Below the pieces are notes generated by a model, which saw only the letters and a program-made list of their open reading frames with translations, was not told where the DNA came from and did no database searches. Below are positions 1 through 17,628 of a stretch of DNA of 64,000 nt, piece after piece (positions within the stretch are counted from its first letter, which is position 1; every line of letters starts with the position of its first letter). The translations under genes and the position numbers were made by a program. Source of the DNA: Candidatus Neomarinimicrobiota bacterium (GTDB taxonomy: Bacteria; Fidelibacterota; Marinisomatia; SCGC-AAA003-L08; TS1B11). The DNA lies in contig JADFSS010000003.1 of the NCBI GenBank assembly GCA_022560655.1, forward strand, positions 1 through 64,000. Direction: 5' to 3'.

Positions 1-1280
1 CCGGCCAGCTGGCTACCTGGCTGATGGGCATGCTCATCTTTTTCGACGACTATTCCAACACCCTGCTGGTTGGCAACACCATGCGGCCCTTCACTGACAA
101 GCTGAAAATCAGCCGGGAAAAGTTGGCCTACCTGGTGGATTCGACTGCCGCGCCCATCGCCAGCATCGCCCTGGCGTCCACGTGGATCGGCTTTGAGCTG
201 GGCCTCCTCACCAGCAGCTTTGACGCTCTGGGTATCAGCGACAACCCCTACATGACGTTTATCGCCGCAATACCCTACAGTTTCTATTCGTTGATGGCGC
301 TGCTCATGGTGGCGATGCTAGCCTTTTCGGGTCGCGATTTCGGACCCATGTATGAGGCGGAGCGTCGCAGCCTTGTCGAAGGTAAAGTGCTCCGCGATGG
401 GGCCACCCCCTTACTGGACCGCGAACTGGCAAATCAGTTGCCGCCAGAGGGAACCCAAGGGCGCTGGCACACGGCCCTCATGCCCATTGCGACCATGATC
501 CTCATACTGCTGGTAGGGCTCTATATCAGCGGTAAGGCGAACCTCGGTGAGGGTGATTACCGGGTGCGTGAAATCATCGGTGCGGCAGACTCTTTTGTGG
601 TCCTGATCTGGGCGGCCTTCGGCGGGACTGTCGTAGCCGGGCTGCTTGCAATTGGCCACAGAATACTTTCAGTCGGTGCGACGATTGACGCCTTTCTGGT
701 AGGCTTTAAGGCGATGGTCGTTGGGATTATTATTCTCACGCTCGCCCGTGGCCTGCAATACGTTACGGTCGATCTCCACACTGCCGATTACATTTTCTAC
801 GCTACCGAGGATATTCTCAACCCGCGCCTGTTGCCTGCGATTACGTTCGTGATCGCCGCCTTGACCAGTTTTTCCACCGGCACTTCGTGGGGCACCATGG
901 CGATCCTGGTACCGCTGGTCGTTCCTCTGGCCTATACGATTCCCATGCAGTTGGAACTGCCGGAGGCCGTTGCGCAATCCATATTTTTAGGCAGTATCGG
1001 TGCGATCTTATCCGGTGCCATATTTGGCGACCACTGCTCGCCCATTTCCGATACGACCGTCATGTCGTCCATTGCTTCGGGGGCCGATCATATCGATCAC
1101 GTGCGCACCCAGCTGCCCTACGGACTCGTGGTGGCAGGGGTGACCATTGCCGTGGGCTATATTCCTGCCGGCTTCGGCTTCAGCCCTTACCTGAGCAATC
1201 TGCTGGCACTTGGAATTTTGATGCTAGTGGTCTGGAAATTGGCGCGAAATCCTGAAGATCAGCTAACCGCCGCGAGCTGA
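1..1280 (+). CDS. nhaC: Na+/H+ antiporter, NhaC family (5' end outside window)
   Basis: Inner-membrane antiporter that would exchange sodium for protons. The reading frame is open from the first base of the window, so the true start lies upstream; the first ATG at 24 is internal. The N-terminal part seen here carries the family hallmark FFDDYSNTLLVGNTMRP followed by a conserved DSTAAPIAS segment, and the C-terminal half has GDHCSPISDTTVMSS, also typical of NhaC. About ten hydrophobic segments are visible. Its last 18 bases overlap the end of the convergent CorC-like gene. The substrate could also be an organic anion with Na+, since this superfamily includes malate/lactate exchangers. Confidence 0.88.
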   Translation, partial: GQLATWLMGMLIFFDDYSNTLLVGNTMRPFTDKLKISREKLAYLVDSTAAPIASIALASTWIGFELGLLTSSFDALGISDNPYMTFIAAIPYSFYSLMALLMVAMLAFSGRDFGPMYEAERRSLVEGKVLRDGATPLLDRELANQLPPEGTQGRWHTALMPIATMILILLVGLYISGKANLGEGDYRVREIIGAADSFVVLIWAAFGGTVVAGLLAIGHRILSVGATIDAFLVGFKAMVVGIIILTLARGLQYVTVDLHTADYIFYATEDILNPRLLPAITFVIAALTSFSTGTSWGTMAILVPLVVPLAYTIPMQLELPEAVAQSIFLGSIGAILSGAIFGDHCSPISDTTVMSSIASGADHIDHVRTQLPYGLVVAGVTIAVGYIPAGFGFSPYLSNLLALGILMLVVWKLARNPEDQLTAAS

Positions 1281-2504
1281 GCCCTTGGTAATCAGGGGGT
1301 GGATGGCTACCTGTTCAATCTGGCTGGGGGACGAGCGTGTAATTGTCACTCGGCCGAAAGGTAGGTTGGTCCTTTCGCCTCTGTGTGGTATGCGGTCCAG
1401 AACGGTGGTAAGATAGCCCGCGATCGTTTCATAGTCCCCCTCGGGGATATTCAGCTGAAACTGGGCATTCAAGTCCCGGACCTTGCTCCTGCCGTCGGCA
1501 AGAACCGACCCATCCGGACGCCGCCTGGCCGCGCTGATCTGGGCATCAAATTCGTCCTCGAATTCGCCGAATAACTCCTCAAATAGGTCTTCAGGAGTCA
1601 CCAGGCCAGCCGTGCCGCCGTACTCATCAAGCACAATGGCAATCGGGCGGTGGGTGCGCTGGAGGAGTTTCAGTACATCCATGGTTGTGTTGGAATCGGG
1701 CACCATCGTCATGGGATGTACAATGCTCGCCAGGTCCGGTGGATCCTTGAACAGGTCGTAGAGATAAACCACCCCAATCACCTGGTCCAGCGAGTCACGG
1801 TAAACGGGCAGTTTGGAGTATCCCGAATCGATGAACGCATGTACCACTGTTTCCATGCTCGATGATTCCGGGACGGCGCGCACCTCGGTGCGGGGTGTCA
1901 TGGCGTGGGAGACGGATGTCTCGCCTAGATCAAAGACCTGGGTGATCAGTTCTTGTTCACTTTTCTGCAGTACCTGGGAGTCCCCCTGCCGGGTAAACAA
2001 TAGTTTCAGATCATTCCGCTCCAGGTTCGATTGGCTTGTTGACCCCGACGCAGCCTGAGCATTTGATGCTCCTCTATCGCTGATCTTTCGTAGCGGCGAT
2101 GCCAGTGGCGCAAACAGCAGCTGCCAGAGGCGGTGCAGGGGGGCCAGCAGCCGCAGCAGTTGGTTGGGGCGTTCGCCCGCGATGGTCTTCGGCAGCACCT
2201 CACCAAAAAGCAAGATGGTGGCCGTGATGCTGCTGAGGACCAAAAGCGGGTGCCAGCCGAAACGCATGAGATAGATGGTGGCAAAGCTGGTGGCCAGCAC
2301 ATTGGATAGCGTGGTTCCCACCAGCACGCTGACCATAAACTTGCTGGGGTTACTCAGCAGCTCGTTAGCACGTTGGGCCCCTCGGCGCCGCTTCTTGGCC
2401 CAGACCTCCATCTGGAGGGGGTTGGCCGTCAAAAAAGCTAGCTCCGAGCCTGAAAAAAAGGCTGAGAGTCCCAACCCTACGAGCGCCAAACTCAGCTCAA
2501 GCAT
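1263..2504 (-). CDS. CorC/HlyC-type CNNM-CBS membrane protein
   Basis: Predicted inner-membrane protein of 413 residues. Residues 1 to about 145 form the DUF21/CNNM membrane domain with the conserved EVLPKTIAGERPNQ segment. Residues of about 170-320 hold a CBS pair, with MTPRTEV at the entry and VLDEYGGTAGLVTPEDLFEE in the second repeat, and about 335-405 is the CorC/HlyC C-terminal domain. Family members have been linked to Mg2+ or Co2+ efflux and to hemolysin-C-like functions; the ion here is not known. Length and domain order are normal. It is convergent with the antiporter gene and divergent from murQ. Confidence 0.88.
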   Translation of the reverse strand: MLELSLALVGLGLSAFFSGSELAFLTANPLQMEVWAKKRRRGAQRANELLSNPSKFMVSVLVGTTLSNVLATSFATIYLMRFGWHPLLVLSSITATILLFGEVLPKTIAGERPNQLLRLLAPLHRLWQLLFAPLASPLRKISDRGASNAQAASGSTSQSNLERNDLKLLFTRQGDSQVLQKSEQELITQVFDLGETSVSHAMTPRTEVRAVPESSSMETVVHAFIDSGYSKLPVYRDSLDQVIGVVYLYDLFKDPPDLASIVHPMTMVPDSNTTMDVLKLLQRTHRPIAIVLDEYGGTAGLVTPEDLFEELFGEFEDEFDAQISAARRRPDGSVLADGRSKVRDLNAQFQLNIPEGDYETIAGYLTTVLDRIPHRGERTNLPFGRVTITRSSPSQIEQVAIHPLITKGSARGG

Positions 2505-2695
2505 TGCATCCCTGTTCCCAATCCAATTGGCAGGTTATTGTTTGCATCGGGGGGGGCTGCGCTGAGGGCAACAGGTCTCTGCTTGGGTTTCAACGTGGTT
2601 TGGGTCGCGACATATTGCTCAACGTGATCAGACTTGCATGATTAAATTGATATCCTGAATGACCGTCGGTCTACACGAAGTATAGCTTAACGGGG
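2505..2695. promoter_or_regulatory. Divergent intergenic region before murQ
   Basis: These 191 bases separate the divergent CorC-like and murQ genes and must hold promoters for both. A possible -10 hexamer TATAGC lies at 2681-2686, only nine bases before the murQ ATG, but no good -35 box sits at the right distance. No ribosome binding site of normal spacing precedes the murQ ATG. A CCAATTGG palindrome occurs near 2523. Nothing else is recognisable. Confidence 0.3.
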
Positions 2696-3640
2696 ATGAA
2701 AAAGCAAGTGGAAGCGTCCAGTGTGCCCTTGGACGAATTGAGTCGCCGGGGCGATCTTATCACCGAGCACCGTAACGCGGCCTCAGAGAACCTGGACCTG
2801 ATGCCGGTGGAGGAGGTGCTGCGCCTCATCAACTCCGAGGATGCAACCGTGCCGGAGGCGGTGGCCAGAGCTATTCCGCGCATCGCCGAGTTTGTCGATC
2901 GAGTGGTAGGGAGTTTCCGCTCAGGGGGTCGGCTGATTTATGCCGGCGCTGGAACCAGCGGTCGGCTGGGTGTGCTGGATGCCGCCGAGTGTCCCCCCAC
3001 TTTTTCCGTGCCACCCGACATGGTGGCGGGAATCATCGCCGGAGGACCGCCTGCGCTGACCCGCCCTGTGGAAGGGGTAGAGGATTCGCCCGCGGCAGGG
3101 GCCGACGCTCTGAAGGAGCTAACTCCCACGGCCGCCGACTGTGTGCTGGGCATCGCCACCGGGGCCACCACACCTTTTGTTCATGGCGTACTGGACTACG
3201 CCCGCCAGGTGGGAGCCCATACCGGCTTCCTGGTGTGTACATCCGAGGATAATGTACACGGCCACGCCGACACCATTATTCCGGTCGTGGTGGGGCCGGA
3301 GGTGCTGACCGGGTCCACCCGCATGAAGGCTGGCACCGCCACTAAACTGGTGCTCAACATGATTACCACCACAGCCATGGTGCAGCTCCATAAGACCTAC
3401 GGCAATCTGATGGTCGATTTGAAGGCGCTCAACGCCAAGTTGTGGGATCGGGGTACACGCATCATCGTGGCGGTTACCGGAAGGGAGTACGAGGCCGCAT
3501 ATGAGTTGCTCAGGCGGGCCGATGGCGAGGTCAAGACCGCCCTCGTCATGGGAACTCAGGATTGGTCGGCGACGAAGTCCCGGCGGCGCCTGGCAGAAAG
3601 CGGCGGCGCCCTGCGCCAGGTGCTGGAAAGCGAGGACTAA
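2696..3640 (+). CDS. murQ: N-acetylmuramic acid 6-phosphate etherase MurQ
   Basis: Cytoplasmic enzyme that splits the lactyl ether of MurNAc-6-phosphate to give GlcNAc-6-phosphate and D-lactate in cell-wall recycling. The 314-residue protein is of normal length. It has the SIS-fold signature GAGTSGRLGVLDAAECPPTF at about 81-100, with the conserved glutamate in AAEC as a catalytic candidate, and the second family signature TGSTRMKAGTATKLVLNM. The next gene, three bases on, is anmK, which makes its substrate, so the pair is a coherent unit. The ATG at 2696 has no clear ribosome binding site. Confidence 0.95.
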   Translation: MKKQVEASSVPLDELSRRGDLITEHRNAASENLDLMPVEEVLRLINSEDATVPEAVARAIPRIAEFVDRVVGSFRSGGRLIYAGAGTSGRLGVLDAAECPPTFSVPPDMVAGIIAGGPPALTRPVEGVEDSPAAGADALKELTPTAADCVLGIATGATTPFVHGVLDYARQVGAHTGFLVCTSEDNVHGHADTIIPVVVGPEVLTGSTRMKAGTATKLVLNMITTTAMVQLHKTYGNLMVDLKALNAKLWDRGTRIIVAVTGREYEAAYELLRRADGEVKTALVMGTQDWSATKSRRRLAESGGALRQVLESED

Positions 3641-3643
3641 TCT

Positions 3644-4765
3644 GTGGGGGTCGCGGCCCGGGAATGGACCGTTCTGGGCTTGATGTCGGGTACCTCCATG
3701 GATGGGGTGGACGCCTGCCTCGCCCGCATCGACCTGGCCGACGACGGGCTGGCTTTTGAGTGCCTGGATGCCGTTGCGATCGCCTTTGAATCGGATGACC
3801 AGGCCGCCATCAGGCGTTCCCTCACAGGCAATGCGGACGAGCTGGCGGGCCTGCACGCCCGGCTGGGAACCGTATATGCAGAGGTGGCAGAGCGCTTCCT
3901 GCGCGGGCGTAAACCGGACCTGGTGGGCTGCCACGGCCAGACCGTGGCCCACCGGGACGGGCAGTATACACTGCAGCTGGGTTCGACCGCGCTGTTGAGC
4001 CAAACGCTACAGGTTCCCGTGGTCTCCAACTTTCGGGACGCTGACTTGGCGGCAGGGGGCAACGGAGCGCCCCTGATGCCCTTTCTGGACTGGCTGTTGG
4101 CCAAGTCCCGCCCGACGCCCACGGTGCTGGTGAACATCGGTGGGGTGGCGAACATTTCCGCCATTTTTCCGGGCGCTGACCGGGACGCGGTGACAGGGTT
4201 CGACACAGGGCCGGGGATGGGTCTGATCGATGAGGCGGCCCAGTCGATATTCGGCGAGCCTTACGATCAGGACGGCCGCCTCAGCAGCCCCGGTGAAGCC
4301 CACGACGGGCTTCTCGCCCAGCTGATGGCGCACCCCTTTGTCATCCGCCAGCCGCCCAAGTCCACTGGGCGGGATGAGTTCGGCGGCCAGCTGGTGGCTC
4401 GCTTGAACGGCCAGTTTCAACTGCCGCCTGCGGACACGCTACGCACGCTGGTGAGGTTCACGGCCCGTTCGGTGGCAGCCAATATCCGGCAATTTGTGCC
4501 GGGGTACAAGCAGTTCGATACGCTGATTGTAAGCGGTGGGGGGGTGCACCACCCGCTGGTGATGGCCGACCTCCGGGCGGAATTTCCCACCACGAAAGTG
4601 GTGACTTCAAAAGCGTTAGGCATTGACCCCGACTACAAGGAAGCGCTGCTGGTAGCCGTGCTGGCGGTAGCGCACGCGCAGGGAATGGCTGGCAACATGC
4701 CGGGAGTTACCGGCGCTGGTAGGCAGGTAATTTTGGGACAAGTTACGTCGGTTCAGGAGATCTGA
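3644..4765 (+). CDS. anmK: Anhydro-N-acetylmuramic acid kinase AnmK
   Basis: Phosphorylates and hydrolyses 1,6-anhydro-MurNAc to MurNAc-6-phosphate, the substrate of MurQ encoded just upstream. The 373-residue protein starts at a GTG three bases after the murQ stop. The family motif GLMSGTSMDGVD is at about residues 11-22, followed by GCHGQTVAHR, LVNIGGVANIS and FDTGPGMGLIDE, all part of the ASKHA nucleotide and sugar site. SGGGVHHP near residue 300 is the C-terminal family motif. Its stop is followed at once by the next ATG, so the run is probably one transcript. Confidence 0.95.
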   Translation: MGVAAREWTVLGLMSGTSMDGVDACLARIDLADDGLAFECLDAVAIAFESDDQAAIRRSLTGNADELAGLHARLGTVYAEVAERFLRGRKPDLVGCHGQTVAHRDGQYTLQLGSTALLSQTLQVPVVSNFRDADLAAGGNGAPLMPFLDWLLAKSRPTPTVLVNIGGVANISAIFPGADRDAVTGFDTGPGMGLIDEAAQSIFGEPYDQDGRLSSPGEAHDGLLAQLMAHPFVIRQPPKSTGRDEFGGQLVARLNGQFQLPPADTLRTLVRFTARSVAANIRQFVPGYKQFDTLIVSGGGVHHPLVMADLRAEFPTTKVVTSKALGIDPDYKEALLVAVLAVAHAQGMAGNMPGVTGAGRQVILGQVTSVQEI

Positions 4766-6124
4766 ATGAACGAAAGCATCTTTCGCATGTACGATATCCG
4801 GGGCGTCGTGGAGCGCGACTTTTCCGAAGAGGTGGTCACCGATCTAGGTCGGGCGTTCGGCACTTTTGTACAGCGGCAGGGTGGCCGCAGTGTCGCCCTC
4901 AGCGGGGATATCCGGCTGAGTACGCCGGCCCTGAAGGGTTGGTTCGGTGAAGGGCTGCTGGAGACCGGGACTGAGATCATCGACATCGGCACCGTGCCGA
5001 CCCCGGCCAACTACTTCAGCATGTACCATCTTGACGTGGATGGCGCCGTTCAGATTACGGGCAGCCACAACCCGCCCGAGTTCAACGGTTTCAAGTTGTC
5101 GTACCGACGGGCGGCCGTCTATGGGGAGCAGATTCAGGATTTGCTCGCCCTCATTCAAAAGGGCGATTTTGAACGCGGGGTTGGCAGCCGCCGCGAAGAG
5201 GATATCCTCACCCCTTATCTTGACATGCTGGCAGACAAGATCGAGCTGGAACGCCCTCTGAAAGTGGCCATGGACTGCGGCAACGCGGCGGGCGCCCTGA
5301 CGGCTCCCGCCATTTTCAAGCGGTTAGGCGTGCAACTCACGGAGCTTTTCTGTGAGGTGGATGGCCGGTTCCCAAACCATCATCCGGATCCCACCGAAAT
5401 CAAGAATCTGGCGCAACTGATTGCGGAGGTAAAGTCAGGGCAGTACGACTTCGGGGTGGCCTACGACGGTGACGCGGACCGGGTGGGGATCGTGGATGAT
5501 CAGGGGGAGGTGGTCTGGGCCGACACGCTCATGGCCCTCTTCCTGGATGAAGTGGCCAAGCCGGGGGAAGCCATAATCTTCGATGTGAAGTGCTCACAGG
5601 CGCTGGAAGAGGAGATCGTCCGTCACGGCGCCAAGCCGGTGATGTGGAAGACCGGCCACAGCCTGATCAAGGAGAAGATGCGGGAGTTGCAGGTGGGTTT
5701 TGCGGGCGAGATGAGCGGCCACCTCTTTTTCGGTGACGAGTTTTACGGCTTCGATGATGCCGTCTACGTATCCCTGAGGCTGGCCCGGTTTCTATCCCGC
5801 CGCAAAGAGCGGCTGTCGGATCTGATTGCCAGGATCCCCAGCTATTACAGCACTCCTGAGATGCGCTTGGCGTGTCCAACCGACGAGGAAAAATTCCGTA
5901 TCGCCCAGGCTGCGGAGACCTACTTCAAGGAACGCTACGAATGCATTGATATCGATGGCGTGCGCATACAGTTTGGCGATGGATGGGGTCTGGTGCGGGC
6001 CTCCAATACCCAGCCGGTCATCGTCTGCCGTTTCGAAGCGCGTACACCCCAGCGTCGCGATGAAATTCAGGCCGAGGTCCTGGGCAAGCTGGGCGACTTC
6101 GGCGAGATTGAGATGGTGGGTTGA
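4766..6124 (+). CDS. Phosphomannomutase/phosphoglucomutase
   Basis: Alpha-D-phosphohexomutase of 452 residues that interconverts hexose 1- and 6-phosphates. The active-site serine loop is ITGSHNPPEFNGFK near residue 98, the metal loop is DGDADRVGIVDD near 235, the sugar-binding loop is GEMSGHLFF near 318, and the C-terminal phosphate-binding loop is RASNTQPVIV near 412. The GEMSGH form matches the dual phosphomannomutase/phosphoglucomutase group. The ATG abuts the anmK stop without spacing and the stop overlaps the next gene's TTG. Together with the isomerase two genes on, it could supply mannose-1-phosphate or glucose-1-phosphate for surface sugars. Confidence 0.93.
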   Translation: MNESIFRMYDIRGVVERDFSEEVVTDLGRAFGTFVQRQGGRSVALSGDIRLSTPALKGWFGEGLLETGTEIIDIGTVPTPANYFSMYHLDVDGAVQITGSHNPPEFNGFKLSYRRAAVYGEQIQDLLALIQKGDFERGVGSRREEDILTPYLDMLADKIELERPLKVAMDCGNAAGALTAPAIFKRLGVQLTELFCEVDGRFPNHHPDPTEIKNLAQLIAEVKSGQYDFGVAYDGDADRVGIVDDQGEVVWADTLMALFLDEVAKPGEAIIFDVKCSQALEEEIVRHGAKPVMWKTGHSLIKEKMRELQVGFAGEMSGHLFFGDEFYGFDDAVYVSLRLARFLSRRKERLSDLIARIPSYYSTPEMRLACPTDEEKFRIAQAAETYFKERYECIDIDGVRIQFGDGWGLVRASNTQPVIVCRFEARTPQRRDEIQAEVLGKLGDFGEIEMVG

Positions 6125-7080
6125 ACCTCGCTCCGGCAGAGCTGGACCGACTGCGGGGGCAGATCAATGACCGGCTGGGAGAGGTTTATCCCCAGGGGCC
6201 AGGTCTACTCAAGGAACCGGTGCACTACGCGCTGGCCGGCAAGGGCAAGCGGCTGCGTCCTATTCTCACATTGCTTGCCAACCAGTGCCTGGGGGGCACC
6301 GTGGAGGGCGCCCTGCATGCTGCCGTGGCGGTGGAAATGCTCCACAACTTCACCCTGGTTCACGACGATATCATGGACCGGGATGGGATGCGGCACGGTC
6401 AGGCCAGTGTGCATGCGCGTTGGGATGACGGCGTGGCCCTGCTCGCCGGGGATGCCATGCTGGTACTGGCCATTGCGGAGCTGCGCCTGTCACCCGCCCA
6501 TGGGGATGCGCTGATGAGCAGCTTCACGCGGGGGGCGCTGGCGGTTTGCGAGGGGCAGGCACTGGACAAGGAGTACGAGGACCGGCCGATGGTATCGCTG
6601 GATGATTATCTGCGCATGATCGACCTGAAGACTGGCCATATGCTGGGGATGGCATCCGAGTTGGGCGCCATCGCTGCCGGTGCCAACGAAGAGCACATCA
6701 ACAATTTGAGGCGCTTCGGACAACTCTTGGGGCGGGCCTTTCAGGTTCAGGATGATCTGCTGGAAATATTCTCTGACTCCCATACGATGGGTAAGAGTCT
6801 GGGCAGCGATATCCTGTCGGAGAAAAAGACTTACCTGATGGTCATGGCTTTGGAAGCATTCCCCGACCGGGTGCATCAGGCCACCGAAGCAGCCAGGACC
6901 GATATGGCGGCTGGCATGGAGGCTCTTCGCCGCCTCATTGACCACGAGGGCATTCGTAGTCAGGCCGAGGAGAGCATCGTCAGCACGGTCGCCCAGGCCA
7001 AGCGTCACCTCGAATCGGTGGGCCCTGGCAAACTGGTTCTGGCAGACTTTGCCGATATGGTCTTGGAACGCGACCGCTAG
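6121..7080 (+). CDS. Polyprenyl (geranylgeranyl-type) diphosphate synthase
   Basis: Isoprenyl diphosphate synthase of 319 residues that condenses isopentenyl diphosphate with allylic diphosphates. The first aspartate-rich motif is VHDDIMDRD near residue 80 and the basic GKGKRLRP lies near 39. The second motif reads QVQDDLLEIF near 210, with glutamate where the family normally has the last aspartate of DDxxD. GKSLGSDILSEKKT follows as usual. It starts at a TTG overlapping the mutase stop (TTGA). Chain length cannot be read with confidence; FPP, GGPP or longer are possible. Confidence 0.88.
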   Translation: MNLAPAELDRLRGQINDRLGEVYPQGPGLLKEPVHYALAGKGKRLRPILTLLANQCLGGTVEGALHAAVAVEMLHNFTLVHDDIMDRDGMRHGQASVHARWDDGVALLAGDAMLVLAIAELRLSPAHGDALMSSFTRGALAVCEGQALDKEYEDRPMVSLDDYLRMIDLKTGHMLGMASELGAIAAGANEEHINNLRRFGQLLGRAFQVQDDLLEIFSDSHTMGKSLGSDILSEKKTYLMVMALEAFPDRVHQATEAARTDMAAGMEALRRLIDHEGIRSQAEESIVSTVAQAKRHLESVGPGKLVLADFADMVLERDR

Positions 7081-7089
7081 TAGCGACCT

Positions 7090-8193
7090 GTGCCTCTGAT
7101 GTCAGACCGTCTCGACATCCTTAAGCGGATCAAGAAACTGGACCACCAGGACATGGGCGCTGCCATCCAGGACTGCCCCCAACAGATTGTCCGCCTGCTG
7201 GACGCCACCGGCGCCTGGAAGCCCCGCGCTACGGAGCAGGCACCCAAGCAGGTGCTGTACATGGGGATGGGAGGCTCGGCCATCGGTGGTGACATGGCGC
7301 GGGTCTGGGTGGAGCGCCAGTCGAAGGTGCCCATGTGGGTGCAGCGCGGCTACGATGTCCCGGAATGGGTGGGGCCAGGTACTCTGGCGGTGGCTTCGTC
7401 CTACTCGGGCAACACCGAAGAAACGCTGTCCGCCGTTGAGCAGGCTGCTGAGCGGGGCGCCAGTGTGATAGCGGTGGCCAGTGGAGGTGAGCTGCTTGAG
7501 CAGGCAGAAGGCCAGGGCTGGAAGGTTATCAAGCTGCCGGGCGGCCTGCAGCCCAGGGCCGCCATCGGCTATTCGTTGGCCGCCATTGGGCAAGTGCTCG
7601 TGGCCCACGATGTGCTGCCGGAGTCGACTCTGGATGAGCTGCGCGCCGGCGCCAGTCAGATGGCCGCAGAGGGTATGAGGTGGGCCGATCCCGGTGATGC
7701 GACGAATCAACCGCTGCAACTGGCCGGTCTAATCGGTGACCGGCTGCCGGTCATCTACGGTTCAAGTGGCAGCACCGAGGCGCTGGCCATCCGGCTGCGG
7801 GGTCAGCTGGCCGAAAACAGCAAACTGCTGGCCAGCCATCACCTGTTGCCCGAGCAAAACCATAACGAAATTGTGGGGGTGGCGGCACGCGTGAGGGAGC
7901 GGCACGACCTGTTGATCTTCTGGCTCACCGATACCGATGACCACCCCCGCGTGCAACTACGTCGTAGCCTAGCTGGTGGGCTCATGGGGATAGCCCCGTC
8001 GGATGCTGCGCAACCGCCCCAGCAAGTCACAATGAGTGGGACTGGGAGCAGCCTCATCCAGCGCAATTTGTCCCTGCTGCACCAGATCGACTGGCTGTCG
8101 TATTACGCCGCCCTGATCCGTGGCTGGGACCCGTCGGCTATCGACGTGCTGACAGAACTGAAGATTCAGCTGGGTACCCCCGGCCAAGAGTGA
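7090..8193 (+). CDS. Bifunctional phosphoglucose/phosphomannose isomerase
   Basis: Sugar isomerase of the SIS family (367 residues) related to archaeal-type PGI/PMI enzymes that convert glucose-6-phosphate or mannose-6-phosphate to fructose-6-phosphate. The first SIS lobe has MGGSAIGGDM near residue 58 and SSYSGNTEETLSA near 100. The second lobe carries LPEQNHNEIVG near 256, where the glutamate and histidine are the usual catalytic residues. The start may be the GTG at 7090 or the ATG at 7099. It follows the prenyl synthase by nine bases and overlaps a possible GTG of the next gene. Confidence 0.9.
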   Translation: MPLMSDRLDILKRIKKLDHQDMGAAIQDCPQQIVRLLDATGAWKPRATEQAPKQVLYMGMGGSAIGGDMARVWVERQSKVPMWVQRGYDVPEWVGPGTLAVASSYSGNTEETLSAVEQAAERGASVIAVASGGELLEQAEGQGWKVIKLPGGLQPRAAIGYSLAAIGQVLVAHDVLPESTLDELRAGASQMAAEGMRWADPGDATNQPLQLAGLIGDRLPVIYGSSGSTEALAIRLRGQLAENSKLLASHHLLPEQNHNEIVGVAARVRERHDLLIFWLTDTDDHPRVQLRRSLAGGLMGIAPSDAAQPPQQVTMSGTGSSLIQRNLSLLHQIDWLSYYAALIRGWDPSAIDVLTELKIQLGTPGQE

Positions 8194-8201
8194 CGGCGTC
8201 C

Positions 8202-8230
8202 TTGACATGGTTTCGGGTGGGGAGTATATT
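8202..8230 (+). promoter_or_regulatory. Near-consensus sigma-70 promoter for the BFN gene
   Basis: TTGACA at 8202-8207 and TATATT at 8225-8230 are separated by exactly 17 bases, a near-perfect housekeeping promoter. Transcription would start near 8237, four or so bases before the ATG at 8241, so the message would be almost leaderless. The promoter begins just after the stop of the upstream isomerase gene and could give the nuclease gene independent expression within the operon. Confidence 0.65.
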
Positions 8231-8240
8231 GTCCACCGAT

Positions 8241-8825
8241 ATGATCCAGCTGCTCGTGGAGAAGATTTCATTTTACCCGCCCAGCAAGGGATATGCCATA
8301 TTACTGAAAGAAATGGCCGGGGAACGCTTTCTGCCCGTGATAGTGGGCAGTTTCGAGGCCCAGTCTATCGCCCTGGCCCTGGAAGACGTGCAGATGCCCC
8401 GTCCCATGACGCACGACCTGTTTTGCAATATTCTGGAGGACCTCAGCGTAGAGGTGAGCGAGGTTTTGATATCGGAGCTGCAGGAGGGTACGTTTTACTC
8501 AAAAATCAGTCTGATCAGTCAGGTGGGGACGGCCGATATTGATGCCCGCCCCAGCGATGCGATAGCCTTGGCCCTTAGAGTGGGAGCACCCATCTATGCC
8601 TCGGAAGCTGTCATGGATGAGGCTTCGGTGCATGATATTCTTGAGCAGACTGTCCCTCCTCCGTCGATATCACCCGCGGATGAAACAGAGCCGAAGCAAC
8701 CTGAAGAACGTCTAAAGCGGTTGGAAATCCAACTTGAGCGTGCCGTAACCTCTGAAAACTATGAAAAGGCCGCCGAGCTGCGGGACAAGATTAAGAAGAT
8801 CCAGACGGAGACAACCAAGCCGTGA
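8241..8825 (+). CDS. Bifunctional nuclease (BFN/DUF151) with C-terminal UVR motif
   Basis: A 194-residue protein of the bifunctional nuclease family (DUF151), some members of which have DNase and RNase activity. Residues 1 to about 130 are the BFN domain, with the conserved stretches LPVIVGSFEAQSIA, PRPMTHDLF and DARPSDAIALALR. About 160-193 is a UVR-type helical hairpin (ENYEKAAELRDKIK) as in UvrB/UvrC partners. The ATG at 8241 fits the family N-terminus. A GTG at 8190 that overlaps the previous stop (GTGA) would add 17 residues and could serve read-through transcripts. Function in this organism is unknown. Confidence 0.85.
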   Translation: MIQLLVEKISFYPPSKGYAILLKEMAGERFLPVIVGSFEAQSIALALEDVQMPRPMTHDLFCNILEDLSVEVSEVLISELQEGTFYSKISLISQVGTADIDARPSDAIALALRVGAPIYASEAVMDEASVHDILEQTVPPPSISPADETEPKQPEERLKRLEIQLERAVTSENYEKAAELRDKIKKIQTETTKP

Positions 8826-8841
8826 TTGCGTGGCGGGCAGC

Positions 8842-9564
8842 CTAGGCCTTTTCTTCCTCCAATACTGACATTGCCAGTTCAGCCGCTTCCTGCTCAGCGG
8901 CTTTTTTATTGTTTGCCTGAGCGCTTGCAAAAGTGCGGGTGCCGATGCGGACCTGAACCACAAAGTTCTTGTCGTGCTCCGGTCCTTTGGTGGCCAGCAG
9001 GTCAAACCGTGGTTTACCCAGCTGCTGATGATGACAGAGCTCGATCAAGCGGCCCTTGTGGTTAATGTAGGCTGCAGCCTCAGCCTCCCGGTTGAGCACC
9101 CTGTGCTTCACGAATTGCTCCGCCGCCGCCATGCCGCCGTCCAGGTAAATGGCTCCTAATAGTGACTCAACCGCATCACCCACCAGATTGCGCCGCACCT
9201 TCGCGTTGCTGAGCTTGACGCCACTGTCCACCTGCAGAAAGTGCTGCAAGCCCAAATCCTCACCAACACGCGCGAGGAAGCTCTTGCTGACGAAGGTTGA
9301 CCGCCGCAGGGTGAGCTCGCCTTCTGAATCGCTGGGATAGCTGGTGTACAGGTGGGCGGAGACAACGTGGCTGATGATGGCATCGCCCAAAAATTCCAGC
9401 CGCTCAAAACTTTGGTCGGTGGCATCGCTCGCACTGCGATGGGTCAGGGCCAGGTGGAGCAGGGATATGTCCTTGAAATGGACGCCCAGCCGACGCTGAA
9501 GTTCGCCCAGCTTACCGTTCTGCCGCGGCGTCTTCTTCCTGAATAGCCTGCGGATGGAAACCAC
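8842..9564 (-). CDS. rnc: Ribonuclease III
   Basis: Double-strand-specific endoribonuclease of 240 residues for rRNA processing and mRNA turnover. The nuclease domain contains the signature FERLEFLGDAI near residue 55 and GDAVESLLGAIYLDGG near 127, which provide the metal-binding acidic residues. The C-terminal 70 residues form the double-stranded-RNA-binding domain (VQVRIGTRTFASAQANNKKAAEQEAA). It starts at a GTG nine bases after fabF, the usual end of a fab cluster. Its 3' end lies only 16 bases from the convergent BFN gene and carries that strand's terminator inside its coding sequence. Confidence 0.95.
   Translation of the reverse strand: MVSIRRLFRKKTPRQNGKLGELQRRLGVHFKDISLLHLALTHRSASDATDQSFERLEFLGDAIISHVVSAHLYTSYPSDSEGELTLRRSTFVSKSFLARVGEDLGLQHFLQVDSGVKLSNAKVRRNLVGDAVESLLGAIYLDGGMAAAEQFVKHRVLNREAEAAAYINHKGRLIELCHHQQLGKPRFDLLATKGPEHDKNFVVQVRIGTRTFASAQANNKKAAEQEAAELAMSVLEEEKA
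8881..8907 (+). terminator. Intrinsic terminator embedded in antisense rnc
   Basis: AGCCGCT at 8881-8887 and AGCGGCT at 8896-8902 form a perfect 7-bp stem with an 8-base loop, followed by a run of six T at 8902-8907. On the plus strand this is a textbook rho-independent terminator 55 bases after the BFN stop. On the minus strand the same bases are rnc codons for a Lys-Lys-Ala-Ala-Glu-Gln stretch. Confidence 0.7.
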
Positions 9565-9573
9565 GAGGGTTGA

Positions 9574-10818
9574 TTAGCCGCTGAACCGCTTCAGTAGCAG
9601 CACGGCGTTGTGACCCCCGAACCCGAAGGTGTTGCTGAGACCGTACTCGAACGAGTGTTTGGTGGGTTTGTTCGGCGAATAGTTGAGGTCGCAGTCGGGG
9701 TCGGGCGTAGTGTAGTGAATGGTGGGGGGAATTTCCTGCCGCTCCAGGGCGAGCAGACATGCTATGGCCTCCGCTCCGCCAGCCGCACCCAGCATGTGCC
9801 CCGTCATGGACTTGGTGGAGCTGACCAGCAGCCCGTTGGTGGCATGATCACCAAAGACCGACTTAATGGCGAAGGACTCGTTCTTGTCGTTGCGCGGGGT
9901 GGACGTACCGTGGGCATTGATATAGCCCACCTCATCGGGCTCAATACCGGCATTTCCGATGGCCAGTGCCATGGCCCTGGCGGCACCTTCACCTCCTTCA
10001 GCAGGGGCGGTCACATGGAAGGCATCGGCGGTAGCGCCGTAACCGACCAGTTCACCATGGATCGTGGCGCCCCGTCGCTCTGCGTGGCCCAGCTCTTCCA
10101 ATATCACGAGGCCGGCCCCCTCGCTCATCACGAATCCGTCACGCTGGGCATCAAAGGGGCGGCAAGCTGTGGCCGGGTCGCTATTCCTGGACAGGGCCTT
10201 CATGTTGGTGAAGCCTGCCATCGATATGGGCGTGATGGGGGCTTCGCAGCCGCCGGCCACCATCACGTCGGCATCGTCATATGTTATCAGACGGAATGCG
10301 TCGCCAATCGCATTCGAGCCGGTGGCACACGCGGAAGTGATGCAGTAGTTGGGCCCTTTAAGTCCATACTTGATGGAGATTTGCCCGGCAGCAATGTCCG
10401 CGATAAGCCGGATAACCATGAAAGGGCTGATCCTCCGGGGGCCACGCTCCTTGAGGATTCCCGCCGATTCCTCAAGTGTCCAGATGCCACCGATACCCGT
10501 CCCCACGATCACACCCACGCGATTGGGGTCCGCGTGGCCCAGGAAGCCGGCCTGGGACACGGCTTGCTCGGCGGCCACCATGGCAAAGACGGTGAAGAGG
10601 TCCATCTTGCGGGCCAGGTAAGGATCCAGGTAGGCATCAGTGTCCAGGTTGCGCACCTCGCCAGCTATTTTGACGGCGAAATCTTCCGTGTCGAAACGGG
10701 TAATGGAATCAATGCCATTGCGACCTGAGAACAGAGCCGCCTCAAAATCGCTCACGGAATTGCCGAGGGGTGAGGTCACACCCATGCCGGTTATAACGAC
10801 CCGACGCATGCTTGGCAC
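9574..10818 (-). CDS. fabF: 3-oxoacyl-ACP synthase II FabF
   Basis: Elongating beta-ketoacyl-ACP synthase (414 residues) of fatty-acid synthesis. The Cys-His-His triad is seen in SACATGSNAIGDAF near residue 163, NAHGTSTPRNDKNE near 303 and STKSMTGHMLGAAGG near 339. Length and motif order are those of KAS II. It follows acpP by 16 bases on the same strand and is followed by rnc, the common fab-rnc arrangement. Confidence 0.97.
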   Translation of the reverse strand: MPSMRRVVITGMGVTSPLGNSVSDFEAALFSGRNGIDSITRFDTEDFAVKIAGEVRNLDTDAYLDPYLARKMDLFTVFAMVAAEQAVSQAGFLGHADPNRVGVIVGTGIGGIWTLEESAGILKERGPRRISPFMVIRLIADIAAGQISIKYGLKGPNYCITSACATGSNAIGDAFRLITYDDADVMVAGGCEAPITPISMAGFTNMKALSRNSDPATACRPFDAQRDGFVMSEGAGLVILEELGHAERRGATIHGELVGYGATADAFHVTAPAEGGEGAARAMALAIGNAGIEPDEVGYINAHGTSTPRNDKNESFAIKSVFGDHATNGLLVSSTKSMTGHMLGAAGGAEAIACLLALERQEIPPTIHYTTPDPDCDLNYSPNKPTKHSFEYGLSNTFGFGGHNAVLLLKRFSG

Positions 10819-10834
10819 TTCGACTCCCTACGGC

Positions 10835-11071
10835 CTAGGAAGCATTCTTTTCGATGTACTCCGCGACGCTCCCCACGGTGGTGAGTTTTTCGGCCTCTTC
10901 ATCGGGGATTTCAATATTGAATTCATCTTCGAGTTGCATGATGAGTTCCACGGTATCCAGTGAGTCGGCACCCAGGTCCTCAACAAACTTGGCCTCGGGG
11001 GTGATCTTGGCTGGCTCGACCCCTAATTTGTCGGCAACAACCTCTGAAATCTTGTCGAATGTACTAGACAT
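10835..11071 (-). CDS. acpP: Acyl carrier protein
   Basis: Small acidic carrier protein of 78 residues that holds growing acyl chains on a 4'-phosphopantetheine arm. The attachment serine is in [10 protein letters not shown] near residue 36, and the helix-II motif [14 protein letters not shown] follows. It lies between fabG and fabF as in most bacterial fab clusters, with a GAGGATC ribosome binding site before its ATG. Confidence 0.97.
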
Positions 11072-11083
11072 GCTGATCCTCCG

Positions 11084-11827
11084 CTACATTACCATCCCGC
11101 CATCAACCAGTAAGGTTTGCCCCGTGATGTAACTAGCTTCGTCGCTGGCCAGAAAGACCACCGCTGGCGCCACATCTTCGGGCTCGCCCAGGCGACCGAG
11201 TGGGATGCGCTCGGTCAATTTCTTTTTGACGCCCTTCCGCAAATTTGCCGTCAAGGCCGTGGTGACAAATCCGGGGGCTACGGCATTCACCGTGATTCCC
11301 CGGGATGCCAGTTCCCTGGCAGCCGACTTGGTGAGGCCGATAATGCCGGCCTTTGAGGCTGCGTAATTTGTCTGTCCGGCGTTGCCCATCACCCCCACCA
11401 CAGACGTAATGCTGATGATGCGGCCATAACGCTGTCTGATCATCGGCCTCACAGAGGCCTTGATGCAGTTAAACGCCCCGGTGAGGTTGGTCAACAGTGG
11501 GGCCTCCCAATTTGCATCGCTCATGCGTATGATGAGGTTATCCTTGGTGATTCCGGCATTGTTGACCAAGACGTGGACGGTGCCATATTGAGCAATAATG
11601 TCCTTGAACGCGGCCGTCACCGCCTCCGACTCTCTGATATCACAGGCGTGGGCGCTGGCCCGCCCACCGCGAGATGCAATTTCTTCGCACACTTCCTTCA
11701 GGCTATCTGTTGACCGGCTGATGAGGGCCAGCGTGGCGCCCGATTCAGCCAGCGCCATCCCGATGGCCCGCCCGATCCCCCGGGAAGCTCCGGTAACGAC
11801 TGCAATTCTATCCTGTAGCCGGAACAC
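11084..11827 (-). CDS. fabG: 3-oxoacyl-ACP reductase FabG
   Basis: NADPH-dependent short-chain reductase (247 residues) that reduces 3-ketoacyl-ACP. The nucleotide-binding TGASRGIGRAI is near residue 13, NNAGIT near 89, the catalytic serine in SITSVVGVMGN near 140 and YAASK near 153, with the C-terminal YITGQTLLVDGGM typical of FabG. It starts at a GTG that overlaps the fabD end by about 20 bases, which suggests translational coupling. Confidence 0.96.
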   Translation of the reverse strand: MFRLQDRIAVVTGASRGIGRAIGMALAESGATLALISRSTDSLKEVCEEIASRGGRASAHACDIRESEAVTAAFKDIIAQYGTVHVLVNNAGITKDNLIIRMSDANWEAPLLTNLTGAFNCIKASVRPMIRQRYGRIISITSVVGVMGNAGQTNYAASKAGIIGLTKSAARELASRGITVNAVAPGFVTTALTANLRKGVKKKLTERIPLGRLGEPEDVAPAVVFLASDEASYITGQTLLVDGGMVM

Positions 11828-12737
11828 CCAGTTGCCTCACATCCTGCACTGTGCTCAGACTCAACGTGAACGCCTCAGGCAAGATTCTGCGATTCAGTCC
11901 CAGTAACACCTTGCCAGACCCCACCTCATAAAATTCCCTGAATCCCTCGGTCCACAGTTGGCGCATGGTCTCTTCCCAGCGCACCGGGCTCTCCAGCTGT
12001 TTCAAAAGATTGGCTTTGATCTCCTCGGCCGAACGGGACGCACGAGCGGTAACATTCTGGTATACAGGCACTTGTGGGTCGCGCAACGACATCTTGTCCA
12101 GGGCGGCCCCCAGGGCGGCTTTCGCCGCTGCCATGAGGGGCGAGTGGAATGCACCTGATACGTTAAGTGGGATGACCCGTCGCAAGCCCATTGTCCGGGC
12201 CGCCCGCGCGGCGTTGGCCACCGCCTCAGCGTCACCCGAGAGCACCACCTGCCCCGGCGCGTTAAGATTGGCCGGGACAACCACGCCACCTTCAGGCCCG
12301 TTCTGGCAAAGCGCCTGAATCTGCTCCTCCGAGGCCCCCAAAAGCGCTACCATCGCACCCGGGGCCTGCGCAGCGGCCCGGGACATTTCCAAGCCGCGCA
12401 CCTTTACTACCTCAAGGGCCTCCGCAAAGTCCACCGCGCCCGCCGAAACCACCGCCGAGTACTCCCCCAAGCTATGTCCAGCCGTGGCTTCGGGCAGCAT
12501 CCCCTGTTCCCTCAGCAGCGTACTCAGCGCCAGACTGTGGACGAACAGTGCTGGTTGGGTGACCTGAGTCTGGCGCAAACGTTCCTCCGGGCCTTCGAAT
12601 GAGATTGCAGCCAGGTCGTAGCCCAAGGTGGCCTCAGCATGGTCGTAGAGCTCGCGGACTTCAGCATATTGGTCATAGAGGTCACGGCCCATGCCCACCG
12701 CCTGGCTCCCCTGCCCGGGGAAGAGATAGACCGCCAT
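11808..12737 (-). CDS. fabD: Malonyl-CoA:ACP transacylase FabD
   Basis: Loads malonyl groups from CoA onto ACP. The 309-residue protein begins YLFPGQGSQAVGMG, has the catalytic serine in AGHSLGEYSA near residue 91, and the catalytic histidine in SGAFHSPLM near 201. It follows fabH by two bases and overlaps fabG. Confidence 0.96.
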   Translation of the reverse strand: MAVYLFPGQGSQAVGMGRDLYDQYAEVRELYDHAEATLGYDLAAISFEGPEERLRQTQVTQPALFVHSLALSTLLREQGMLPEATAGHSLGEYSAVVSAGAVDFAEALEVVKVRGLEMSRAAAQAPGAMVALLGASEEQIQALCQNGPEGGVVVPANLNAPGQVVLSGDAEAVANAARAARTMGLRRVIPLNVSGAFHSPLMAAAKAALGAALDKMSLRDPQVPVYQNVTARASRSAEEIKANLLKQLESPVRWEETMRQLWTEGFREFYEVGSGKVLLGLNRRILPEAFTLSLSTVQDVRQLGVPATG

Positions 12738-12739
12738 CC

Positions 12740-13750
12740 CTAAACCGCCTCACTCCAGCGTACATACATGCCACCCCATGTGAATCCGGCACCAAACGCG
12801 GCCAGAAGGACATTGTCGCCCGGCTTCAGCAATTTTTGGTCGACCGCGTCAGCGATGGCGAGCGGGATCGTTCCGGCAGTCGTGTTGGCGTAGCGCTCAA
12901 TGTTGGACAGCACCTGGTCTTCATTCAGTCCCAGCCGCTGGGCACAGGCGTCGATGATCCGTTGGTTTGCCTGATGGGGAATAAACAGGCGGATGTCGCC
13001 GTTACTGAGCTGATTACGCCGGGCCACCTCAGCGGCCATCTCGGCCATCCATTTCACGGCGTATTTGTACACTGCTCGCCCATCCTGCTTCAGGTAGTGC
13101 TTACCCTTGGCCACGGTATCGGCAGTTGCGGGATACAGACTGCCGCCGCCCTCCAAATACAGGTAGTCGCCTCCTGAACCGTCACATCTTAGGATCGAGT
13201 CCATAATCCCTTCGCTCCCGTCCTCACTGGGCTCAAGAAGCACAGCACCGGCACCGTCGCCGAAAAGAATGCAGGTGGACCGGTCTGTATAGTCCATGAT
13301 GGAACTCATGGTGTCGGCCCCTATAACCAGGATTTTGGAGTAGCTACCCGATTCGATCATCCGTGCACCGGCCTCCAGGCCGTAGAGAAACCCAGTGCAG
13401 GCGGCACTAAGATCGAAGCCCCAGGCCCGGTTGGCCCCCAAGTTGTTCTGGACCAGGCAGGCAGTGGCCGGGAGCAGCATATCGGGGGTCACGGTGGCTA
13501 CGATAATGCAGTCGATTTCATTGGGATCCAAGTCCTTCTTGCGCAGGATTTCCTGAGCCGCATGGGTGGCCATGTGCGACGTGGCTTCCCCCTCAGCGAC
13601 CAGATGCCGTTCGCGGATGCCCGTGCGGGAGACGATCCATTCGTCCGTGGTCTCCAGCATTTTTTCAAGGTCCTTGTTGGTGAGAATCCGCTCGGGCAGA
13701 TATTTGCCGGTGGCGGTAATTTTGGCTGTTCTACGAAGTCGTGACGGCAT
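12740..13750 (-). CDS. fabH: 3-oxoacyl-ACP synthase III FabH
   Basis: Starts fatty-acid synthesis by condensing acetyl-CoA (or a branched acyl-CoA) with malonyl-ACP. The chosen ATG at 13750 gives 336 residues and a normal N-terminus; an earlier frame extension would run 24 residues into plsX. The Cys-His-Asn triad appears in LSAACTGFLYG, FIPHQANQRI and RYANTTAGT. It overlaps the 3' end of plsX by 20 bases. The primer preference cannot be read from sequence. Confidence 0.96.
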   Translation of the reverse strand: MPSRLRRTAKITATGKYLPERILTNKDLEKMLETTDEWIVSRTGIRERHLVAEGEATSHMATHAAQEILRKKDLDPNEIDCIIVATVTPDMLLPATACLVQNNLGANRAWGFDLSAACTGFLYGLEAGARMIESGSYSKILVIGADTMSSIMDYTDRSTCILFGDGAGAVLLEPSEDGSEGIMDSILRCDGSGGDYLYLEGGGSLYPATADTVAKGKHYLKQDGRAVYKYAVKWMAEMAAEVARRNQLSNGDIRLFIPHQANQRIIDACAQRLGLNEDQVLSNIERYANTTAGTIPLAIADAVDQKLLKPGDNVLLAAFGAGFTWGGMYVRWSEAV

Positions 13751-14768
13751 GCCGTTCCTCAAATATGTCCATGTGGGCCTCAATACCCTCCCGGATTGTG
13801 TCGACCAGGTTTTCTGAAACACATTGGGCCGTGAGTTTCAGCGCATTCCTAATGGCTCTGGCACTGGACGTGCCATGGCACACTATCGAGACTCCATTGA
13901 CCCCCAGGAGCGGCGAACCGCCGTGCTCTTCGTAATCCAGCTCCCGGCCAAGGTCCCTCAAGGCAGGGCGCATCAGGGGCAGTGCCAGCTGGAAGATGGG
14001 GTGCCGCTTTAGTCTGTCGCGGGCCCATTTGACGGCATGAACCACCATACCCTCTGCTGCCTTCAGCATGATGTTACCTACAAAGCCATCGCAGACGACC
14101 ACGTCAGCCACCCCAGCGAAGATGTCACGCGCTTCAACATTGCCTACGAAATTGTCCACATGGAGTTGCAGCAGATCATAGGCACGCTGAGACAGTTCGT
14201 TTCCCTTGCCCGGTTCAGTCCCGATGTTCAACAAGCCGATCCGTGGCCGGGGATTGTCAAGTCTAAGGGTGGCGTAGGCCTTGGCCATCAGGGCGAATTG
14301 CAGCAGATGTATGGCACGCACGTCTACATTGGCACCCGCGTCGCACAGCAGGAAGCCGCCTTGGGCAGTGGGAATCATCGGGCAGATAGCCGGGCGGCGA
14401 ACACCGGGAATTGGCCTGAGCAGAAAAAGGGAGGCTGTCAACACTGCGCCCGTATTGCCAGCGCTGACAACACCATCGGCTTCACCCCGTTGGACCAGCT
14501 CCACAGCGCGAACCAGCGAGGAGTTTCGCTTGGTCTTGATGATCCGTGCCGGCCGATCGTGCATGGTGACAACCTCGTCGGCGTGGATGATCTGCAGACG
14601 GGAGTGATCAAATGGATATTTGGCGACTTCCGATTCGAGCAAGTCGCGCTGTCCAACCAGGGTGACAGATATATCTCCGTCCCGCGTTTCGCGCAGGTAT
14701 TCGAAGCTCCCCTTGACCATTTGCTCGGGGGCAAGGTCGCCACCCATGGCATCGAGAGCTAACCTCAC
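13731..14768 (-). CDS. plsX: Phosphate acyltransferase PlsX
   Basis: Makes acyl-phosphate from acyl-ACP for phospholipid synthesis. The 345-residue protein opens with RLALDAMGGDLAPE and has the family stretches SAGNTGA, CDAGANVD, LLNIGTEPGKGN and VCDGFVGNIMLKA. It starts at a GTG 15 bases after rpmF and overlaps fabH, the classical rpmF-plsX-fabH order. Confidence 0.96.
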   Translation of the reverse strand: MRLALDAMGGDLAPEQMVKGSFEYLRETRDGDISVTLVGQRDLLESEVAKYPFDHSRLQIIHADEVVTMHDRPARIIKTKRNSSLVRAVELVQRGEADGVVSAGNTGAVLTASLFLLRPIPGVRRPAICPMIPTAQGGFLLCDAGANVDVRAIHLLQFALMAKAYATLRLDNPRPRIGLLNIGTEPGKGNELSQRAYDLLQLHVDNFVGNVEARDIFAGVADVVVCDGFVGNIMLKAAEGMVVHAVKWARDRLKRHPIFQLALPLMRPALRDLGRELDYEEHGGSPLLGVNGVSIVCHGTSSARAIRNALKLTAQCVSENLVDTIREGIEAHMDIFEERHAVTTS

Positions 14769-14783
14769 GGTTGCCGCGAGTGG

Positions 14784-14966
14784 CTAGGATTGTTTGGGCG
14801 AAATAAGGGGTCGCCCACGATAATAGCCGCAATTCGCGCAAGCGCGATGGGGCATTTTCGGTTGCCCGCACTGTGAACAGGCGGACACTTGCGCGGGGGT
14901 CAGTTTCCAGTGAGTGCGCCGCTTGGCTGAGCGACTATGGGAGTGTCTCCGTTTCGGGTGAGCCAT
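14784..14966 (-). CDS. rpmF: Ribosomal protein L32
   Basis: Large-subunit ribosomal protein of 60 residues. It begins AHPKRRHSHSRSAKRRTHW and has the zinc-binding cysteine pairs CSQCGQPKMPH and CANCGYYRG, so this is the zinc-binding (C+) form. The ATG at 14966 is chosen because it matches the family start; the frame stays open for 23 codons upstream. It follows the DUF177 gene by 10 bases, the common pairing. Confidence 0.96.
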   Translation of the reverse strand: MAHPKRRHSHSRSAKRRTHWKLTPAQVSACSQCGQPKMPHRACANCGYYRGRPLISPKQS

Positions 14967-14976
14967 AATTCCTTGC

Positions 14977-15489
14977 TTACTGTTCCAATTGTTGTTTAAT
15001 CGCGTGAAGTGCCAACCAGCGTTCGTCCGGTCCATGGCCAGCGCAGTCGCACGCCTGTTGATTCAAGTCTATGCCGCAGCTGGGACACAACCCCCGGCAG
15101 TCTTCCCGGCACAGCGCCTTCACGGCAGCCTCCAGGTAAATCACTTCAGCTGTGATGCCCCCGAGGTCCACTTCCGGGTGGGTCGCGGGAGTAACCGGAA
15201 GCGCAATGTCATCGGCGCGCAGCCCAGGTCGCCACTCCTGCGCCAGCAGTGCCCGAAACGATCCTGAGATTGACTGCCGCGCCGGCCCCAGGCACCGGTC
15301 ACAGTCAAATTGGAGCTCTGCGGTCACCTGGCCATGGAGCACATAGTCTTTGCCCTGGGGCGACGCCACCAGTGTAACTAGGATGGGCGTATCGGAGGGG
15401 CCCAGATCGAAAATACCGATGTCGGCCAGGGACTCCCGGAACACCCGCTCATCTGCCACGTCCTGCAACTCATTGCGGTAGATTTTCAT
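14977..15489 (-). CDS. DUF177 (YceD-type) protein upstream of rpmF
   Basis: A 170-residue YceD/DUF177 protein, almost always found directly upstream of rpmF; plant and E. coli relatives have been linked to 23S rRNA accumulation. It contains FDCDRCLGPARQSISG near residue 83 and a cysteine-rich tail (CREDCRGLCPSCG and DCAGHG) that probably binds zinc. It seems to be the first gene of the rpmF-fab cluster, since 100 non-coding bases lie upstream. Confidence 0.88.
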   Translation of the reverse strand: MKIYRNELQDVADERVFRESLADIGIFDLGPSDTPILVTLVASPQGKDYVLHGQVTAELQFDCDRCLGPARQSISGSFRALLAQEWRPGLRADDIALPVTPATHPEVDLGGITAEVIYLEAAVKALCREDCRGLCPSCGIDLNQQACDCAGHGPDERWLALHAIKQQLEQ

Positions 15490-15589
15490 AAGCGCTTAAG
15501 TTAGAAATAGCCTATTTGCTGTACAATAAGCATTTGGGCCAGTGCTGCCTACGAAGCGAACGAGCAGCCGCCGTCCGGGTGCGCACAGG
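15490..15589 (-). promoter_or_regulatory. Likely promoter region of the DUF177-rpmF-plsX-fab operon
   Basis: The 100 bases between the membrane-protein gene and DUF177 are the only sizeable gap before the fatty-acid cluster, so they probably hold its promoter. On the minus strand the last 60 bases are AT-rich (TTATTGTACAGCAAATAGGC then TATTTCTAACTTAAG), but no -35/-10 pair of good spacing is certain. I see no terminator for the upstream gene. Confidence 0.3.
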
Positions 15590-16789: not shown

Positions 16790-16839
16790 GGCCAGGCTTC
16801 TCCTTGCTATGGCTGGATAACAGTGGACTTCACTGCAGG

Positions 16840-17628
16840 CTACAACGTGGGATCGATATCTTCTTTGCGCAGATTATCAACCCAGGTCCCGGGATAGGTC
16901 GCAATAATCTCCTCCTGTAACATTTTGGCATCCTCCAGAGATGTGAAGTCGCCAACGCGAACCCGCCACCAAACCTCGTTCCTGTATTCCAGCCGAACCC
17001 GCTGGATATAGGCGTCGTAGCCGGTTTCCTGCGCCACCTGTTGCATCACCTTTTGGGCTTGCTGCGGAGTTTTCCAGCTGCTCACCTGGATGGTGAAATG
17101 TCCCGCGACGATATTGCCGCGATATTTCTTACGGGGGACTTTGGCGCGAGAGATGCTGGGAGCCGGTGGCGATTTGGCCGGTGTGGGAGCCGCCAGGGTT
17201 ACCGATTCGGGTGCAGTGCCATCGGCAGTATCCTCAGGCTGAGTGTCCGGGGGAGCATCAGCCATGGGTTGCGCCCGCATGAAGGCGGTGGTGTCCTCCA
17301 GGGCAATGTAGCGGAACTCCTGATAGGACAACTCCTCACCGTCGGAAATCACCGTCACTGCGAAGGCGTAATCCCCGACGACATCCGCTGTGAAGGTCCA
17401 GGAATTGACAAAGGGGGAAAAATCAAGCTCAATCGTGCTCTCATCGGGGTAGTCCACGAGGTCCCAGCGATAGCTCACATCAAAAGCGTCTTCGGGCCCC
17501 TCTGCCAAAATGGTCTCTGGTTCGCCGACATAAATGGTTTGGACCTCCTTCTTCCCAAACGGCAGTTTGTCGCAACTGAATGCGAACAAGAGCATGAGCA
17601 GAATCAGAAACTTGGTGCGGTGTGACAC
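16840..17628 (-). CDS. SPOR-domain lipoprotein
   Basis: A 262-residue protein with a short hydrophobic signal ending LLFAFSC near residue 19, which fits a lipoprotein signal although FSC is not a perfect lipobox. Residues of about 30-115 look like a beta-rich Ig-like segment, followed by a Pro/Thr/Ala-rich linker. A SPOR domain covers about 174-255 (FTIQVSSWKTPQQAQKVM and WWRVRVGDFTSLEDAK). SPOR domains bind denuded glycan strands at division sites, so it probably acts in the periplasm on peptidoglycan. It follows ndk by 19 bases. Confidence 0.82.
   Translation of the reverse strand: MSHRTKFLILLMLLFAFSCDKLPFGKKEVQTIYVGEPETILAEGPEDAFDVSYRWDLVDYPDESTIELDFSPFVNSWTFTADVVGDYAFAVTVISDGEELSYQEFRYIALEDTTAFMRAQPMADAPPDTQPEDTADGTAPESVTLAAPTPAKSPPAPSISRAKVPRKKYRGNIVAGHFTIQVSSWKTPQQAQKVMQQVAQETGYDAYIQRVRLEYRNEVWWRVRVGDFTSLEDAKMLQEEIIATYPGTWVDNLRKEDIDPTL

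Follow-up and report, generated by a model that had tools for sequence, protein, structure and literature searches.

A conserved promoter close to the BFN start codon points to a near-leaderless message in Candidatus Neomarinimicrobiota

Results

The window (the whole stretch of DNA analysed, 64,000 nucleotides) carries a gene for a BFN-domain protein, referred to here as BFN, immediately downstream of a gene resembling those for bifunctional phosphoglucose/phosphomannose isomerases (Table 1). The gene order is anmK, a phosphomannomutase-like gene, a polyprenyl synthetase gene, the isomerase-like gene and BFN, followed on the opposite strand by genes for RNase III and a FabF-like protein. BFN matches PF02577 with 137.8 bits (cut-off 27), carries its UVR motif at the C-terminus and is related to TM0160 (E 8e-22), two entries of which (1vjl and 1sj5) were the only solved relatives found by sequence. 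Both the Pfam domain and the TM0160 match begin at residues 20-21 of the protein read from ATG 8241. An Rfam scan of the window at the gathering threshold returned no matches. The genome from which the window comes is 2.33 Mb in 128 contigs, with GC near 60% over a sample of 464 kb, and the relatives whose BFN proteins are 65-79% identical to this one belong to Candidatus Neomarinimicrobiota.

Table 1. Positions of the features discussed, numbered along the window
Feature	Position	Strand	Basis or remark
Bifunctional phosphoglucose/phosphomannose isomerase-like gene	7090..8193	+	Upstream of BFN
Open in-frame stretch from GTG 8190	8190..8240	+	Not a conserved N-terminal extension; absent in 10/10 other family loci
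-35 hexamer TTGACA	8202..8207	+	Sequence match, scoring, family conservation
-10 hexamer TATATT	8225..8230	+	Sequence match, scoring, family conservation
Predicted transcription start	8237..8239	+	Inferred from usual promoter geometry
BFN gene, 194 aa, BFN domain and UVR motif, start ATG 8241	8241..8825	+	
YhaM-like exoribonuclease gene	60483-61442	-	NCBIfam YhaM model E 5.5e-50, HD domain

Between the isomerase stop and the BFN start codon (8241-8243) lie 47 bases, which contain a TTGACA and a TATATT hexamer separated by a spacer of 17 bases, and 10 bases lie between the end of the -10 hexamer and the ATG. The original prediction had placed this promoter at 8202-8230, which is correct, and as a pair of sigma-70-type hexamers 16-18 bases apart it scores 11/12. 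Nine promoter-like sites occur at positions 1-20000 of the window, against a mean of 6.7 (sd 2.6) after shuffling, a total that is not above chance; the BFN promoter stands out among them by its score, the other eight all scoring 9. Exact TTGACA-N16-18-TATATT is found three times in the 2.33-Mb genome and never in the reversed control, and among 349 called genes in 464 kb of the genome the BFN promoter has the top score at a leaderless distance (11/12; the next is 9). The pattern TTGAC-N17-19-TATAAT-N5-12-ATG had no match in this genome. The nearest G-rich run before the BFN ATG, at 8216-8224, ends 16 bases short of it.

Comparison within the family covered 10 genomes from 5 genera, which gave 11 BFN start regions; an eleventh genome (G004) had no match. 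The -10 box is TATATT in all 11 loci and the -35 box is TTGACA in nine and TTGACT in two, the two being 17 bases apart in seven loci and 18 in four, while the distance from the -10 box to the first ATG is 10 bases in eight loci, 9 in two and 8 in one. Thirteen promoter columns (CTTGAC and TATATTG) are invariant across all 11. Over the first 60 BFN codons in 10 of these loci, none of the 19 fourfold sites is invariant, and 4 of the 60 third positions are. Because the promoter columns are invariant while the fourfold sites vary, the promoter and its position relative to the ATG are, on this comparison, under strong selection. No Shine-Dalgarno (SD) core, searched for as listed cores of at least 4 bases in the stretch from -18 to -5, precedes the BFN ATG in any of the 11 loci. 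The promoter sequence, its spacing, its conservation and the absent SD core can all be read directly from the DNA. Met1 is invariant in the 10 aligned sequences, and this invariance, together with the lack of an upstream start in 10 of the 11 loci, points to ATG 8241 as the true N-terminus.

Two side observations concern the same loci. Just 5' of the -35 box, at 8188-8201, lies a GGTTT-type stretch that is partly conserved in most family loci and less clear in the genome of the window; it is possibly an upstream promoter element. One assembly (G008) holds two different BFN copies (C152:15953-16522 and C267:8071-8646; L007 and L184), 72% and 70% identical to the BFN of the window and both preceded by the same promoter, which we take to be a duplicate or a mixed bin.

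Start signals were surveyed in the 349 genes that a home-made caller predicted over 464 kb of the window's genome, with G002 from the same family as the comparison genome. SD-like 5-mers occur at 47 of the 349 starts against 8 of 349 internal controls, and the 16S sequence of a family member (G001) has the 3' end CACCTCCTTTC. Since starts in the genome are SD-enriched and the G001 16S ends in this way, the absence of an SD is a property of the BFN gene. Searches for 16S found none in the window's genome, no match in G006 and a partial match only in G002.

Among the 349 starts, TAWNWT ending at -10 to -6 was seen 15 times against 5.8 expected (p 0.002), TANNNT at the same place 25 times against 16.4 (p 0.04, a weak excess) and TATANT once against 0.6, which is no excess; the corresponding values in G002 (10 vs 7.4, 15 vs 19.8 and 1 vs 1.7) show no excess for any of the three. 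Whole promoters scoring at least 9 precede 3 of the 349 genes (0-3 in displaced controls) and those scoring at least 8 precede 16 (5-12 in the controls), and the same scoring gave no excess in G002. At most a small class of genes in this genome would have leaderless starts.

The three exact TTGACA-N16-18-TATATT sites are the BFN promoter, a site on contig C17 and a third site. At the C17 site (G000:C17:31724-31752; L033), TTGACA-17-TATATT is followed 8 bases past the -10 box by an ATG that opens a frame of at least 237 codons; by eye this frame looks GAF-like, and we count it as a third near-leaderless candidate. At the remaining site the ATG comes after 11 bases and opens just 45 codons; a 404-aa ORF follows at a distance of 171 bases from the site. 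The YhaM-like gene reaches 170 bits, below the NCBIfam YhaM cut-off of 460. It is preceded in 7 of 8 family loci (L205-L212) by GCTTGT-17-[T/C]AA[A/C][A/T]T ending 7-9 bases before the start, under a looser motif that was written after the sequences had been viewed, and 3 of the 8 loci pass BFN-type scoring. The start codon is GTG in L208 and TTG in L211, the locus that does not fit the motif. This is likely a second near-leaderless gene.

A search of the class matched 118 of 171 genomes, and the start regions examined cover part of these matches. They number 92, of which genomes of the class contributed 79 and genome_contigs 13, one of an initial 93 (L158) having been dropped when no start was found; L035-L043 are family genomes again and were counted once. 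A BFN start was called short-gap when a TTG-type promoter scoring at least 8.5 had its -10 box ending at most 10 bases before it. By this definition, whose promoter calls are weak in AT-rich genomes, 27 of the 92 starts are short-gap: 11/11 in f1, 2/2 in f18, 2/2 in f20, 1/8 in f3, 1/17 in f8 and 10/13 in genome_contigs, the last not being an unbiased rate, as these 13 loci were chosen from 47 of 80 after viewing their sequences. A second clade is made up of ten loci of the 13 chosen, in which TATATT lies 6-10 bases before the ATG with weaker -35 boxes; the ten cluster in the BFN tree, where L073, a locus of unclear label, falls among them. Nine of these ten loci have no isomerase match preceding BFN at E 1e-5, so the short-gap arrangement is tied to BFN rather than to the gene next to it.

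Gaps between -10 box and ATG are 9 and 6 in f18 and f20, and 20-27 in all six loci of f9, f17 and f19. Promoters are callable in 4 of 10 loci of f7, with gaps of 19-27, and in 8 of 17 loci of f8, where seven gaps are 14-23 and one is 6. Two f7 loci (L194 and L195) have TATATT 7 bases before the ATG with no TTG-type -35 box, and fall outside the short-gap count. No recognisable BFN promoter could be called in f13 (0/14; L026, L173-L183, L203 and L204), where the BFN start directly follows the apparent end of the upstream reading frame and no SD core was found in the start regions; we regard this as an operon-type form of the gene. Since other lineages of the phylum have a longer gap or an unrecognisable promoter, near-leaderlessness is lineage-specific, and BFN does not need the short-gap arrangement. 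The BFN tree (51 rows plus 4 outgroup rows, with short 321-base stretches left out) is poorly supported at its deep forks, has long branches, and is too weak to give the number of near-leaderless origins.

Discussion

The reading we favor, at a probability of roughly 85%, is that BFN has its own sigma-70-like promoter, that transcription starts at about 8237-8239, and that leaderless or near-leaderless translation yields one protein of 194 residues. The promoter, of a housekeeping type, would act from within the short gap 3' of the isomerase gene. By the usual promoter geometry, transcription starts 7 bases past the -10 box; here the end of the -10 box plus 7 is 8237 and the nearest purines are 8238 and 8239, which would give a leader of 2-4 bases, and the prediction of a leader of some 0-4 bases is well supported. 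The mRNA 5' end would thus fall some 2-4 bases before the AUG, and the ribosome would take this 5'-proximal AUG instead of a Shine-Dalgarno site. For BFN we infer the transcript 5' end, the use of the sigma factor and the leaderless mode of translation. The almost leaderless message of the original prediction is strongly supported by the second clade and by the family, where promoter, spacing and start codon are all conserved in 11/11 loci. BFN is a gene for which a leaderless start can be argued by conservation, from sequence alone.

It could be argued that BFN is translated mainly off an upstream operon transcript, at ATG 8241 and without an SD, the promoter being a minor one. The gap behind the isomerase gene is short, the gene order is kept in 9/9 family loci checked for neighbours, and in f13 the BFN start adjoins the reading frame before it and lacks a recognisable promoter. 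However, a minor promoter is not expected to stay invariant while fourfold sites vary, and the distance of the G-rich run from the ATG is far for an SD site, and we consider this reading quite unlikely. Conservation by itself is no proof of transcription, and the conserved block might be a regulator-binding site or another DNA element that merely resembles a promoter; yet its two parts match the -35 and -10 hexamers, their 17-18 spacing varies by one, as promoters allow, and the block is fixed in position relative to the ATG, which makes such an element hardly credible.

The original prediction had also proposed two isoforms, isomerase read-through transcripts giving, by termination-reinitiation at GTG 8190, a form longer by 17 residues beside the leaderless one. 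What it said of this second start holds in part: the 17-codon frame is open in the window's genome and GTG 8190-8192 overlaps the isomerase TGA (8191-8193). Shigella VirF is a reported precedent for such a pair, a single gene yielding a long product and also a short one, the latter from a leaderless mRNA (PMC5101355). However, the start is not common to the relatives. All 10 other family loci have an in-frame stop 3-57 bases before the BFN ATG and no start codon upstream of the -35 box in the BFN frame, leaving an in-frame upstream start in 1 of the 11 loci, which is not conservation. No SD-like sequence lies 5' of GTG 8190, and the 17 extra codons coincide with promoter DNA that is conserved as DNA. 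The proposal of two isoforms is not upheld by these comparisons and appears very unlikely; the longer form is probably not real, and its frame would be incidental to a GC-rich promoter in which no stops happen to fall. An open frame through a promoter should not be taken as an isoform before relatives are compared.

Near-leaderless, short-leader and promoterless forms of BFN occur across the phylum, and the gene could be used for studying the gain and loss of leaders. One can imagine that Neomarinimicrobiota keep by selection a small conserved leaderless set, biased to nucleic-acid enzymes (BFN and the YhaM-like gene) and including a sensor-like gene, as a regulon acting at the level of translation and responding to the state of the ribosome or initiation factors, most genes using SD or atypical starts; we offer this as speculation that is probably wrong.

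In leaderless mRNAs the 5' end coincides with the AUG or lies close to it, and distance from the 5' end is reported to lower translation in some species (PMC9031893). A TA-like signal some 10 bp ahead of the start is most probably the mark of a leaderless gene, and such genes were reported in 207 of 953 bacterial genomes from groups including Bacteroidetes/Chlorobi (Zheng et al., 2011; PMC3160421); Neomarinimicrobiota are not among the groups named in the part of that paper available to us. BFN resembles these TA-led genes in its -10-like box (gap 10; 8-10 in 11/11 family loci) and in the lack of an SD in 11/11, and differs from them, as far as that part describes them, in adding a near-perfect -35 box and gene-level conservation across genera. 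No report of leaderless genes in Marinimicrobia or of promoters in Neomarinimicrobiota was found in the literature searched. VirF30/VirF21 of Shigella shares with BFN a gene-internal promoter, its mRNA starting 1-2 nt before an in-frame ATG; the long VirF form is reported as the major product and both forms were shown experimentally, whereas the long BFN form is not conserved (PMC5101355 for VirF). At the protein level, BFN shares its domain with the TM0160-type BFN/DUF151 nuclease-domain proteins and differs from them in carrying a UVR motif at its C-terminus; PMC7249048 mentions a plant nuclease that has both DUF151 and UVR. The near-leaderless arrangement is known but uncommon, and BFN is a clear new example of it.
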